Assembly: GCF_009882945.1 (NCBI RefSeq)
Contig: NZ_WTUY01000004.1
Location: forward strand, 334,858 to 398,857
Direction: 5' to 3'
Length of the DNA stretch: 64,000 nt
Origin: Alcanivorax sp. DP30
GTDB lineage: Bacteria; Pseudomonadota; Gammaproteobacteria; Pseudomonadales; Alcanivoracaceae
The notes under the pieces were generated by a model, which worked only from the letters and a program-made list of their open reading frames with translations, was not told the DNA's origin and made no database searches. Of the stretch, positions 43,016 through 47,149 are shown in pieces. The position numbers were made by a program, and so were the translations under genes. Every line of letters begins with the position of its first letter. Within the stretch, counting starts at the first letter, position 1.

Positions 43016-43426
43016 TCACACGTCGCAGGCGCGCCGGGTATCTTTCAGGGCGCCCAGCACCTGGTGGCGGCTCAGCATCCCCACCAGTCGTTTCTGCGCA
43101 TCCACCACCGGGTAGATCTTGGGCTTCTGATTCACCATCAGCTCCGCCACATTGACCACCGAATCGCTCTCCGCCACGGTGAGGGGCTGGTCATGCATGA
43201 ACTCATCCACGATCAACGAGCCTTCACAGTGGTAACTGGAGACCAGCAGTTTGCGCAGACAATCCTGCTCCGACACAAAACCCACCACCCGATGATTTTC
43301 ATCCACCACCGGCAGGCCGGAGGCCTTGTGTTTCAGCAACTGGTCCACCACCTCGGTCAATTCCGTGCCCAACGCAATGGCCGTGGGATGTTTGCCCATC
43401 AGGGCACCGACTGTCAGATCACTCAT
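43016..43426 (-). CDS. CBS-domain pair protein
   Basis: 136 residues from ATG 43426 (MSDLTVGALMGKHP). Two CBS motifs are visible: about 1-60 (ELTEVVDQLLKHKASGLPVVDENHRVVGFVSEQDCL) and about 75-130 (ADLMVNQK-type segment, YPVVDAQKRLVGMLSRHQVL). Stand-alone CBS pairs bind adenine nucleotides and regulate partner proteins. It is divergent from the membrane AAA ATPase gene (start 43606), with a 180-base shared promoter region, so a regulatory connection with it is possible but unproven. Confidence 0.85.
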   Translation of the reverse strand: MSDLTVGALMGKHPTAIALGTELTEVVDQLLKHKASGLPVVDENHRVVGFVSEQDCLRKLLVSSYHCEGSLIVDEFMHDQPLTVAESDSVVNVAELMVNQKPKIYPVVDAQKRLVGMLSRHQVLGALKDTRRACDV

Positions 43427-43605
43427 TGTCACATCCTCTGCAATGGCTCTTCTTTGACTATAGCACTCTGACTCTCCCCGTTCTGCGCTATTCCTCAATC
43501 TCCTGCATGACCGTTTCTTATACAGTAGGTGACGCCATCCGCTACCCTTCCTACAATGGTTGCCGCAGCCACCCCGAACTCCGGGCCGAATCAAGGACAC
43601 AGGAA

Positions 43606-46353
43606 ATGCGAATGGGATCGCACCGCAGACAATTGCCCGGCTTTGTGATGGCTTGCTTGTTGCTGTTGCTGCCGCTGGCCAGGGCTGCCACACCGGCCTG
43701 CGAAGAAGCCGAACAACTGCTGATCAGCCTGGAACGCGAATACCAGCAGTTGCAGAATGACCGCCAGCAACTGCAACGCGTTATTGATGGCCAGATTCCC
43801 AGCCATGAACAGCTGGAAACCCTGATCGGCCACTCTCTGGATAGCCCCCTGATCACCCTGCCGTCCACGGCCCCCTCACGGTCACTGGAATTACCCGAAT
43901 GCCCGTCACTGAATAGTGACCTGGAAGCCATCAAACGCCAGCTGGAAAAGCAGGACCAGGCCCTGCTTGTGCTGCGCCATCAGATTACCGACCGCAACCT
44001 GACGCAGCGGCGCGCCATGGTCAGCCTCACCGAGCTTAACCAGCAGCTGGAGAGCCTGCTCAGTGCCGACACGCTGGACCCGGGCATTCGTCAGGGCGCC
44101 CTGTTGCTACAAGACAACCTGGCAAGCACCTGGGCGCTGATTCCCAGGCTGGATGAAGAACGCTCACAGCAGGCGCGGGCGCAGCTGGATCAACTCTGGT
44201 ATGACAGCCCGACGCTGAACGCGCCAGTGCCCGTCACCGAGGCATATCGCACCCTGATCAAGATCCGCCTGGATATCCAGCGACAGATTCGGGTACTGCG
44301 TGGAGATATCTGGCAACGGCGTCAACTGGCCCGGCAGATTGCCGATTTCGGTGGCCTGAGCGCATCCCCCGCCCTGGTCGCCAGAGAAGCCCAACGGATC
44401 GGACAGCGGGCAATCGACACAATGGTACTGGTGCGCTACGACCTGAACGCGCCGATCCGTGGTAGCGGTTATCTGCCTTTAGTACAGAATGTCCTTGCTC
44501 TGGTGCTGGGCATCGCCGGGTTCGTGCTGCTGGTCAAACTGGCGCGACGCACACGCCACTGGGCCCTGAGTCTGCACGAGAAAGTGATCAGCATGAGTGG
44601 CGATAAACGCTGGGTACGCAATGCCAGTCGCCTGATCAGCGGCCTTGCCCCCATGCTGCCCTGGTTCCTGCTATGGATGATTCTCGACCAGCTTGACATG
44701 CGACTGAACACACCCTCCACCAAGGTGCTGTTCTGGTTACTGCCCTTTGCTCACCTGTACGTAATCTATGGCCTGCTTTGCCTGATGGGCGAATGGCTGC
44801 TGGGCCGTGTGGCCCAGAGTGCTGGCACCTATCTCAGCGGCGACCCGGCACAACAGGTCATAGAGCATTCCCGCGGCGTGGCTCGATGGCTGATGCTGCC
44901 CTGGCTTCCCCTGCTGGTGATCTGGGAAAGCCTCGGTCCATCCCTGCTCTACTACCTGATGCAGACGGTCCTTGGCGTTTGCCTGTACATTGCACTCAGC
45001 CGCCTGTTGACCCTGCGCAGCAAGGATTATCTGGTCTGTCTGCAAGCCATTCTGCCGTCACGACTGGATCCCATTGCCGAACGATTGCTCGGAGAGCGCT
45101 ATTTCCCGCTGTTTGCCCCCCTGCTGTTACCGGTGGCGCTGATCAGCTTCCTGGTGGGCTTTATTGATCGGGTGCTGACCGACTTCGATTGGTACGTGAG
45201 CTTCAAGGCCCGCTGGTTCAGGCTGCGCACCCGTATCGCCAGCGACGAGGGGAATGACCAGGCGACAGACCAGGATGACGAGGTGGAGATCCACTACGAA
45301 CGCTGGTTTGCCCAGGATGTCCCGGAAGGCTCCAAATTGCCGTTCATCGATACCGGCCTGGTTGCTGCCATCGAAAAAAGCATCCAGCGCTGGCATGAAG
45401 ACAAGACCGACGAGAACGCACTGGTAGTGGCCGGTGAAAAAGGCAGCGGCAAGAGCATCAGCATCAGCAAGCTGAAAAGCGCTCTGGAGAGCAGCTGTGA
45501 AAGCCTGAAGGTCATCGACATCAAGGTGCCCGCCCGCACCACCATGCCAGCGGATATCCTCGCCTTGGTCGGCGATACGCTCGATGTGGAACTGGGTGAA
45601 AACGGCGCCGCCGCGCTGGTAAAAAGTGATGAGGACAGAACACCCACCCTGGTGGTGCTGGATGAAGCGCAGAATTTCTTCCTCGCCCAGCAAGGCGGAC
45701 TGGAAGGCTGGCGACAGGTGCTCAGTCTGGTGAACGCGCGACTGGATAACGTGTTCTGGCTGCTGTTGATCAATAACCAGAGCTGGGCCTACCTGTGCAA
45801 CGTGTTCGGCCGAGACTACCAGTTCCGCAATGTGATCAAGGTGAAGCGTTGGGCCCAATCCGACATCCGCTCCCTGATTCTTTCTCGCAACCATCTCAGC
45901 GGCTACAAGGTACGCTACGACGAAGTGTTACTGTCTTCCCGTGGACCGGAGGCAGGCAATGTCCGTAACGCCGAACAACGATACTTCAGCCTTTTATGGG
46001 ATGCCTGCCGGGGCAACCCCCTGGTCGCACTGAGACTGTGGCTCACGTCTATCAAGGTACAGGGGCGCGATGTGCTGGTGGGTCTGCCTACCCCGCCTTC
46101 CGCCAGTCTCCTTGACAACATGGGCGAGAACGCCTTGTTTGTTTATGCCGCCATTGCCACCCACGGCACCCTCACCAGCAATGAAATCAGTGGCGTCACC
46201 TGCCTCCCCGAGAACGTGGTGGGGTACGCCCTGAAAGGTGGTTTCGATGCCGGCTTTCTGCAAAAAGCGGAAGACGGTCGCTACCGGCTGGTGCCATTGT
46301 GGTACCAGCCGGTGATCAGTTACCTGACAAGGAAGAACCTGCTCAATGAATGA
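43606..46353 (+). CDS. membrane-bound AAA ATPase with periplasmic coiled coil, unknown function
   Basis: A 915-residue protein. Residues 1-28 are a signal peptide (CLLLLLPLARA). Residues 30-270 are a coiled-coil periplasmic domain rich in Gln and Leu, reminiscent of the N-domains of large MscS-type channels. About six spans lie at 287-530. The cytoplasmic part has Walker A GEKGSGKS near 610, Walker B LVVLDEAQN near 686 and a sensor-like WLLLINNQS. A C-terminal winged helix (THGTLTSNEISGVTCLPENVVGYAL) resembles ORC/Cdc6-type ATPases. It overlaps the mscS gene by eight bases. An ATPase controlling the channel is the simplest reading; no known family name applies. Confidence 0.75.
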   Translation: MRMGSHRRQLPGFVMACLLLLLPLARAATPACEEAEQLLISLEREYQQLQNDRQQLQRVIDGQIPSHEQLETLIGHSLDSPLITLPSTAPSRSLELPECPSLNSDLEAIKRQLEKQDQALLVLRHQITDRNLTQRRAMVSLTELNQQLESLLSADTLDPGIRQGALLLQDNLASTWALIPRLDEERSQQARAQLDQLWYDSPTLNAPVPVTEAYRTLIKIRLDIQRQIRVLRGDIWQRRQLARQIADFGGLSASPALVAREAQRIGQRAIDTMVLVRYDLNAPIRGSGYLPLVQNVLALVLGIAGFVLLVKLARRTRHWALSLHEKVISMSGDKRWVRNASRLISGLAPMLPWFLLWMILDQLDMRLNTPSTKVLFWLLPFAHLYVIYGLLCLMGEWLLGRVAQSAGTYLSGDPAQQVIEHSRGVARWLMLPWLPLLVIWESLGPSLLYYLMQTVLGVCLYIALSRLLTLRSKDYLVCLQAILPSRLDPIAERLLGERYFPLFAPLLLPVALISFLVGFIDRVLTDFDWYVSFKARWFRLRTRIASDEGNDQATDQDDEVEIHYERWFAQDVPEGSKLPFIDTGLVAAIEKSIQRWHEDKTDENALVVAGEKGSGKSISISKLKSALESSCESLKVIDIKVPARTTMPADILALVGDTLDVELGENGAAALVKSDEDRTPTLVVLDEAQNFFLAQQGGLEGWRQVLSLVNARLDNVFWLLLINNQSWAYLCNVFGRDYQFRNVIKVKRWAQSDIRSLILSRNHLSGYKVRYDEVLLSSRGPEAGNVRNAEQRYFSLLWDACRGNPLVALRLWLTSIKVQGRDVLVGLPTPPSASLLDNMGENALFVYAAIATHGTLTSNEISGVTCLPENVVGYALKGGFDAGFLQKAEDGRYRLVPLWYQPVISYLTRKNLLNE

Positions 46354-47149
46354 TGGAAATATCGTCAACGACCTGGCGGTAGTGGTTGAGCTGTTCAACA
46401 TCTACGCCATTCTGCTGCTGTTCATCGGTGGCTTTGTGTTGTGGGCACTCAACTGGGGCATCCACAAGGCCGGCCAGAAAGTCACCGAAAAGCTGCCTAC
46501 CCGGCGCTTTCTGATTTTGCAGATCACCACCCTGATCGGCTTCGTGCTCTACACCGTGGGCGCCATTGCTCTGGTGGTGGGCGTATTGCAGCCTCCCAAG
46601 GAATTCATGCTCGCCGCTGGCGGTTCCGTCGCCGTGGCGCTGGGTTTTGCCCTCAAGGATATTGCCGCCTCGCTGGTGGCCGGCCTGCTGCTGCTGTTCG
46701 ATCGCCCGTTCCGGGTGGGAGACCGGGTCAGCTTCGACAGTGTCTATGGCGAGATTGTTTCTATCGGCCTGCGCACGGTGCGACTGCAAACCCTGGATGA
46801 CAATCTGGTCACTATCCCCAACTCCCGATTCATTACTGACGTGGTCGCGTCCGGCAACGCCGGGGAACTGGACATGATGGTGGTGACGGATTTTCATGTG
46901 GGACTGGACGCAGATCTGGAAGAAGCAAGAGCCATCATTGAAGAAGTGATCTTTACCAGCCGCTTCGCTTATCTGAAAAAACCCGTGAGCTTCGCTATCG
47001 AGGAAATCGAGATCGGTTACAAGCTGGCCATTCGCTTACGGGCCAAAGCCTATGTACTGGATGTGCATTACGAGAAAGCGTTTCAGAGCGATATTGTGGT
47101 TCGGGTATCCAAACGATTTTCCGAGGCAGGGGTCATTCGACCTGCCTGA
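46346..47149 (+). CDS. MscS family mechanosensitive ion channel
   Basis: A 267-residue small-conductance channel. The pore helix TM3 is about residues 88-117, with the Gly/Ala-rich GGSVAVALGFALKDIAASLVAG. The beta domain follows (RPFRVGDRVSF, VRLQTLDDNLVTIPNSRF), and then the alpha/beta vestibule. It has only two helices before TM3 and no periplasmic domain. The start overlaps the ATPase gene by eight bases, so the proteins are coupled. Together the pair looks like a large channel whose sensor/ATPase part and pore are separate polypeptides. Confidence 0.85.
   Translation: MNDGNIVNDLAVVVELFNIYAILLLFIGGFVLWALNWGIHKAGQKVTEKLPTRRFLILQITTLIGFVLYTVGAIALVVGVLQPPKEFMLAAGGSVAVALGFALKDIAASLVAGLLLLFDRPFRVGDRVSFDSVYGEIVSIGLRTVRLQTLDDNLVTIPNSRFITDVVASGNAGELDMMVVTDFHVGLDADLEEARAIIEEVIFTSRFAYLKKPVSFAIEEIEIGYKLAIRLRAKAYVLDVHYEKAFQSDIVVRVSKRFSEAGVIRPA

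Follow-up and report, generated by a model that had tools for sequence, protein, structure and literature searches.

An MscS-type channel gene and the gene of a membrane-anchored ATPase form a pair in the window, which is the whole 64,000-nt stretch of Alcanivorax sp. DP30 (contig NZ_WTUY01000004.1) that was analysed and in which coordinates are given. The ATPase, hereafter called the partner, has a predicted ORC/STAND-type AAA+ fold. The two genes are linked whichever of them the search starts from, the two proteins diverge jointly, and the pair is kept in lineages where the partner has lost catalytic residues or membrane-embedded parts. On balance, and only by a narrow lean, we regard the ATPase and MscS as a module that consists of a channel and a dedicated regulatory partner, which would act in trans and dock on the cytoplasmic cage of the channel.

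Starting from the window ATPase, we found it in 28 of 57 near genomes, which comprised all 17 of the genus, 11 of the 19 others in the family and none of the 21 elsewhere in the order. An MscS gene lay directly downstream in all 28, one of them cut by the contig end. An ATPase profile then matched 30 of 293 genomes of the order (19 new, 19 with MscS), 6 of 369 genomes of the class (5 new, 5 with MscS) and 14 of 398 genomes of the phylum (11 new, 11 with MscS). With a profile of the ATPase and winged-helix part, 19 of 339 genomes were matched. Seven of these were new, and MscS stood beside the match in four of them (G861, G966, G107 and G186). The matches in the remaining three (G878, G892 and G904) covered the P-loop region only, with E-values of about 3e-11 to 1e-10, and are probably general ATPases. 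The sequence-only reading of the window had coupled an ORC-like ATPase to an MscS gene, and this coupling held up: rather than occurring mostly without an MscS neighbour, the ATPase homologs adjoin an MscS of one subfamily in 67 of 70 genomes. The same adjacency was seen in 35 of 35 named loci, which may share species with the genomes in the other counts and include Alcanivorax, Alloalcanivorax, Mangrovimicrobium, Parahaliea, Aestuariicella, Pseudomaricurvus and Marinobacterium. It was also seen on three of three alphaproteobacterial plasmids (Caulobacter sp. NIBR2454, Novosphingobium pentaromativorans US6-1 and Novosphingobium sp. PP1Y). The closest named relative by ATPase is Alcanivorax sp. 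S6407 (77% identical), and the adjacency persists down to roughly 20% ATPase identity and for partners without a recognisable P-loop. The genome of strain DP30 itself carries one copy of the ATPase; six other matches reach at most 29 bits.

The linkage was equally strict when the search started from the channel. The window MscS was found at E <=1e-45 in 24 of 194 genomes of the order, and the ATPase lies upstream in all 24. Twenty of these were known pairs already, while the other four score 342-373 bits with the ATPase profile. A profile of the MscS subfamily, applied at E <=1e-36, was matched in 19 of 339 genomes of the phylum, where the partner was again upstream in 19 of 19, the weakest at 20 bits; the two MscS-first genome sets overlap. 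As a control, we searched eight genomes with the MscS profile at E <=1e-6, which returned 46 MscS genes, eight of them belonging to the module. From the 38 non-module genes, 22 were inspected with about 1.5 kb of flank, together with seven MscS genes of the DP30 genome, making 29 control loci in nine genomes. None of the 29 had a partner gene within this flank except L199, a tandem copy that adjoins the module itself. One locus (L002) gave a single 9-bit match, and this match fell on the MscS frame. The pairing of ATPase and MscS is nearly two-way and, set against the control loci, more than chance. Pairwise distances of the ATPase and of MscS are correlated over 76 modules (r 0.95), a value that would arise from shared vertical descent alone too.

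The two genes also lie close together. In 70 of the 76 modules MscS starts within 15 bases of the end of the ATPase gene, and in 34 it starts 8 bases inside it, with the start taken as whichever ATG or GTG lies closest to the ATPase stop, which favours small gaps. Synteny with the window extends over the flanks in the named loci of Alcanivorax and Alloalcanivorax, where the module sits at one place. By eye, these flanks hold a sulphur amino-acid enzyme, an enoyl-CoA hydratase relative, an AraC regulator, a CBS gene, RsmD and an M16 protease, the CBS gene alone being identified by a library match. At L074 and L079-L089, only the ATPase and MscS are shared with the window, plus a distant GGDEF match in L087 (tblastn 1e-8); the flanks are short at L079 and, downstream, at L080. 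Between lineages, the new neighbours are mostly different, although those of L074 and L089 look alike. When neighbours change, it is mostly the ATPase and MscS pair that is conserved as a unit. The CBS gene was considered as a third member and rejected, as it adjoins the pair in the named loci of Alcanivorax and Alloalcanivorax and is absent at L074 and L079-L089 (tblastn 1e-8).

Some modules have further MscS genes nearby. On the Caulobacter plasmid (L150 5726-7569) and in G758, a genome of the same phylum and another class (L188 1426-3732), one or two tandem MscS genes follow the module MscS, and these lie outside the partner-linked subfamily. In G134, two MscS genes that belong to other subfamilies lie no more than 3 kb from the module (L096 7184-10690; L192, L205).

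The partner combines an exported, a membrane and a cytoplasmic part. Its hydrophobic segment at residues 10-28 is followed by ARAA, and long helices, a membrane bundle, a P-loop ATPase and a winged-helix-like domain succeed each other along the chain. The AlphaFold2 model of the whole partner has a mean predicted local distance difference test score (pLDDT) of 78.7 and a predicted TM-score (pTM) of 0.53; residues 29-560 modelled alone reach 88.5 and 0.80, respectively. AAA_22 (4e-8) is the sole Pfam family above its cut-off, and one distant partner exceeds the cut-off of the Pfam STAND model nSTAND6. A sequence search of the PDB for direct relatives of the partner gave none that was convincing. 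When the whole model was compared with the PDB by Foldseek, ORC/Cdc6 came first (Drosophila ORC, E 1.5e-7), followed by plant NLRs, CED-4 and TnsC. Residues 29-560 alone gave no match below E 0.5 in the same comparison, and the ORC/STAND likeness therefore sits in the second half. By this fold comparison, the ATPase half of the partner is predicted to be an ORC/STAND-type AAA+ fold with a C-terminal winged helix. The conserved GNP before the winged helix resembles the GxP motif of STAND ATPases.

Much of what the sequence-only reading had described was thus confirmed. The frames of the pair with their 8-base overlap and the divergent CBS gene are as it gave them, its signal peptide, periplasmic helices, membrane spans, P-loop ATPase and winged helix were borne out by motifs, hydropathy and AlphaFold2, and its term ORC-like agrees with the fold comparison. 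Its count of about six spans was not upheld. An exported N-terminus followed by an even number of crossings would leave the ATPase in the periplasm. The span count should therefore be odd, and a cytoplasmic ATPase would call for five crossings, with a re-entrant stretch near residues 500-525, or seven. The start of translation is more likely the second ATG, at 43612 (913 residues), than that at 43606 (915 residues), because of the relatives (for example L064, which has no earlier ATG in frame) and the spacing from an AGGA box.

The 267-residue channel protein matches the MS_channel beta-domain PF00924 (7e-20, 71 bits against a cut-off of 20). Its residues 11-264 align to residues 23-267 of the 286-residue chain 4age_A, which we take to be E. 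coli MscS, through the TM3 region, beta-domain and cage. It presumably ends about where the C-terminal barrel of the E. coli protein would begin. The DP30 genome has eight MscS-type matches in all, and the subfamily profile separates the module MscS (382 bits) from its seven paralogs (at most 105 bits). The subfamily is marked by a signature in the C-terminal part of the cage, AYVLDxxYEKxFxSD, in which Y236, V237, D239, E243 and D249 are invariant across 23 diverse module MscS. Of the 76 module MscS, 74 contain a loose version of the pattern and 65 a strict version. Neither occurs in 31 other MscS frames, some of which are cut at locus edges; two pieces of module MscS at such edges had been taken out of this set. 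The signature at residues 235-249 is a candidate docking site for the partner.

The nucleotide site of the partner is not constant across the family. In a motif census of 77 partners, from 74 genomes and three plasmids, the Walker-A Lys is kept in 56 and lost or unalignable in 21, where it is replaced by R, T, A, S, M, V or L or where no P-loop can be aligned (five partners). Immediately after the Walker-B Asp, 24 of the 77 partners have E, 35 have N and 11 have D. Within the window's family, Lys is kept in 27 and Glu in 23 of 28 genomes. The losses, which cannot be counted as independent events, are spread over several separate groups. Partners of the P-loop-less set can still be aligned to the family from sensor to winged helix (hhalign 99.2%, 231 columns), and the winged-helix-like domain falls in this alignable region. 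Membrane and periplasmic parts have been lost as well. A crude hydropathy scan found no hydrophobic segment in 10 of 77 partners (G416, G520, G396, G861, G966, G107, G186, G071, G758 and G880), with the frameshifted partner of G204 and four edge-cut loci left unclassed. The periplasmic domain is absent from the short partners (about 651 residues) of some Alloalcanivorax. Since linkage is kept despite the loss of nucleotide site, spans and periplasmic domain, the core of the partnership lies in the ORC-type second half and winged helix. As far as the compared sequences indicate, ATP hydrolysis, membrane spans and the periplasmic domain are excluded from this shared core.

Individual loci provide natural variants of the partner. 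In G012 (L020) the Walker A sequence is GEKGAGMT, a Lys-to-Met change that stands alone, the close relatives being intact. The Alloalcanivorax loci L072 and L073 hold partners with (about 899 residues) and without (about 651 residues) the periplasmic domain, a natural domain-deletion pair. In G204 (L102 5295-8080) the partner is frameshifted into frames of 577 and 330 residues and MscS is intact; the frameshift may reflect an error in sequencing or a loss that happened recently. We also looked for a detached membrane gene beside the soluble partners and rejected this idea, as no adjacent gene looks like the missing part in the eight of ten loci that were read. The 202-residue membrane protein encoded about 90 bases upstream of the partner in G071 looks unrelated by eye. 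G880 and G758, whose partners are P-loop-less, share a similar small membrane protein (..VYEVIRRDGEEEL..; L223 4795-5601 and L224 4803-5645), which lies 2.1 and 0.5 kb upstream of the partner in differing orientations.

We suggest the following mechanism for a regulatory partner docked on the cage. The ORC/STAND-type AAA+ partner, which in the window's lineage would be anchored in the inner membrane and reach into the periplasm, would bind the channel physically. Its ATPase and winged-helix half would most likely dock on the cytoplasmic cage of the heptameric MscS via the AYVLDxxYEKxFxSD surface. There it would fix the channel in a single state, of which a closed or desensitised one is the most likely, control thus running from partner to channel, until a change in membrane, periplasmic or nucleotide state ended its hold. 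Nucleotide binding, where the P-loop survives, would act as a slow switch rather than a motor. The output would be tension-dependent solute release tuned to the state of the cell, which would give the partner an osmotic role. We consider a docked cage regulator the best reading because the partner is fixed, the channel subfamily is fixed, the cage carries a partner-linked surface and the nucleotide site is dispensable. There is a precedent for a nucleoside triphosphatase (NTPase) on the cage, as PMC4440785 describes the cytosolic NTPase FtsZ as binding the cytoplasmic domain of MscS. It is possible, though doubtful, that an obligate ORC/STAND-type partner sets MscS gating in trans as a resistosome-like ring under the cage, linking periplasm, tension and nucleotide state, with the nucleotide site and membrane part repeatedly lost and the channel kept as a client.

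Several points weigh against a docked regulator. Close relatives are among the genomes counted for linkage, and the counts do not stand for independent events. The thresholds of 1e-45 and 1e-36, used when the search started from MscS, define the subfamily, and weaker MscS relatives were examined in nine genomes only. The Foldseek matches of the partner have large root-mean-square deviations (about 10-25 Å) and TM-scores near 0.2 by query length. The loss of the P-loop in some lineages means that nucleotide control cannot be the shared mechanism. Finally, a regulator of expression or assembly would also yield linkage and joint divergence. Such a factor, whose winged helix would bind DNA or which would aid the folding or insertion of the channel without gating its pore, fits the ORC-like fold with its C-terminal winged-helix-like domain, the partners without membrane spans and the close gene spacing. 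We nevertheless judge it unlikely, considering that membrane proteins make up most of the partners and often have a periplasmic domain, which is odd for a DNA-binding regulator of one gene, and that the MscS cage itself bears a partner-linked signature. The partner could instead be a motor whose ATP hydrolysis drives the MscS gate. The complete Walker A and Walker B with Asp-Glu in the window protein, and their good retention in the window's family, would suit this. Across the family, Lys at 56 of 77, a Glu position that is more often N than E, and five partners without an alignable Walker A leave the linkage unchanged, which makes a motor quite improbable.

Sensor-plus-effector pairs of STAND-like type are common, and the sequence-only reading had named a membrane-disrupting defence response, beside osmotic control, as a role that would suit the pair. 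In such a defence system a STAND-like sensor would open the channel and kill the infected cell. The STAND-like fold of the partner in the Foldseek comparison, the three module copies on plasmids and the absence of the module from 8 of the 19 other genomes of the family are in its favour. The searches did not bear it out. In PADLOC neither protein matched below E 0.02 (the best, at E 0.021, was to the coiled-coil part of the partner, with none for MscS), phage records held no match to the module, and viral contigs scanned with two peptide patterns held no relative. Ten flanking genes taken from six other loci gave only a phospholipase-like and a CARF-model match, at 20-32 bits. A patchy, mobile occurrence in defence islands also fits poorly with the presence of the module in all 17 genomes of the genus and at a single syntenic position across the named loci of Alcanivorax and Alloalcanivorax, notwithstanding the plasmid copies and the patchy occurrence in the family. 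We therefore consider a defence system very improbable. The same reading had held that periplasmic and membrane parts of an MscK-like channel were moved to a second chain. E. coli MscK is described in PMC9653487 as a heptamer with a periplasmic ring and 11 transmembrane helices. The partner has the same order of periplasmic helices and then a membrane bundle, the MscK entry 7ux1 ranks fifth in Foldseek of the N-terminal model, though with E 1.9 and TM 0.15, and a profile alignment with three MscK-like proteins is collinear, if weak (pairwise E 0.0055, probability 6.6%). This origin nevertheless appears the least probable of all. Partner residues 29-560 contain no MscS_porin (PF12795) or MscS_TM (PF12794) at E <=10, while the separate MscK-like protein of the DP30 genome matches both strongly; MscK-like proteins taken one at a time come second, fourth and twelfth of 27 among membrane proteins and do not outdo controls; and several lineages lack the periplasmic and membrane parts. 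Given the faint collinear hint, a very old kinship of the membrane bundle with MscK may still exist.

The features of the locus are collected in Table 1. The promoter scan upstream of the ATPase gene found one site, against 1.4 expected by chance. Ten of 11 Alcanivoracaceae upstream regions (the window and 10 loci chosen out of the 35 named ones) retain its -10 block, CCTACAATGG, which is missing from L057.

Table 1. Features of the ATPase-MscS module and its surroundings. Positions refer to the window unless a locus is named.
Feature	Position	Strand	Basis
Membrane-anchored ORC/STAND-like ATPase, partner of MscS, 915 residues as first called (predicted fold)	43606..46353	+	AAA_22 4e-8, AlphaFold2, Foldseek
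Predicted signal peptide, about residues 1-28	43606..43689	+	Hydrophobic segment 10-28; pLDDT <50 for 1-28
Predicted periplasmic helical (coiled-coil-like) domain, residues 29-281	43690..44448	+	AlphaFold2 long helices 30-281
Predicted membrane helix bundle, about residues 286-528	44461..45189	+	AlphaFold2 bundle fitting hydrophobic stretches
Walker A GEKGSGKS, residues 610-617	45433..45456	+	Sequence, family alignment
Walker B LVVLDEAQ, residues 682-689, D686	45649..45672	+	Sequence, family alignment
Conserved GNP before winged helix, residues 803-805	46012..46020	+	Family alignment
Predicted C-terminal winged-helix-like domain, about residues 841-909	46126..46332	+	Secondary structure read from AlphaFold2 model
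MscS channel, partner-linked subfamily, 267 residues	46346..47149	+	PF00924 match, alignment to 4age_A
Overlap of ATPase and MscS genes, 8 bases	46346..46353	+	Commonest arrangement, 34/76 modules
Subfamily signature AYVLDVHYEKAFQSD, residues 235-249, C-terminal part of cage	47048..47092	+	Comparison of module MscS
Promoter-like site GTGACG-17-TACAAT	43529..43557	+	Promoter scan and upstream comparison
Divergent CBS gene, two CBS domains	43016..43426	-	Domain library match
Separate full MscK-like gene of the same genome, 1123 residues	L219 816-4187		MscS_porin and MscS_TM domains

MscS channels are the textbook example of pores that membrane tension opens on its own. In Gamma- and Alphaproteobacteria, the oil-degrading Alcanivorax among them, each genome above the MscS-first thresholds paired the subfamily with one AAA+ partner, which would place some MscS pores under dedicated protein control. 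The pair allows the same channel to be compared with and without its partner, and the decayed nucleotide sites are natural variants that separate scaffold from switch. If the proposed regulation is true, a channel would join the clients of ORC/STAND proteins outside defence.

The literature that we searched contained no description of an MscS-ATPase pair in titles, abstracts or passages, most subscription papers being outside its coverage. For Halomonas elongata, PMC7174268 reports four channels: an MscK, two large relatives and an MscS with 43% likeness to the E. coli protein. We set this study aside as a source of phenotypes for the partner-linked MscS, since by its channel table these are probably other subfamilies. 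PMC9035990 was likewise rejected as a precedent: there an MscS and AAA ATPases both occur on genomic islands, but in different elements.

Compared with known systems, the window MscS resembles E. coli MscS and the PF00924 family in beta-domain, TM3 region and cage over residues 11-264; unlike E. coli MscS, it has the AYVLDxxYEKxFxSD signature and a partner gene before it. The partner shares the ATPase and winged-helix fold, and GNP before the winged helix, with ORC/Cdc6 and with STAND proteins and their like (NLR resistosomes, CED-4, TnsC). It differs from them in its membrane anchor, exported N-terminus and fixed channel neighbour, and in the loss of the nucleotide site in some lineages. In MscK and MscM, periplasmic helices and extra spans likewise accompany an MscS pore, whereas here there are two chains and an ATPase, the partner is without MscS_porin and MscS_TM, and the genome has an MscK-like gene besides. 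KtrAB and SUR-Kir6 have nucleotide-binding subunits that gate a channel. They are alike in the proposed logic only, in that a separate nucleotide-binding subunit controls a channel, and here the components are an MscS pore and an ORC/STAND partner. FtsZ, the cytosolic NTPase that binds MscS (PMC4440785), is a general cell-division protein, in contrast to the dedicated operon partner found here. The parts of the module are thus all of known kinds, while their combination and its constancy appear to be new.

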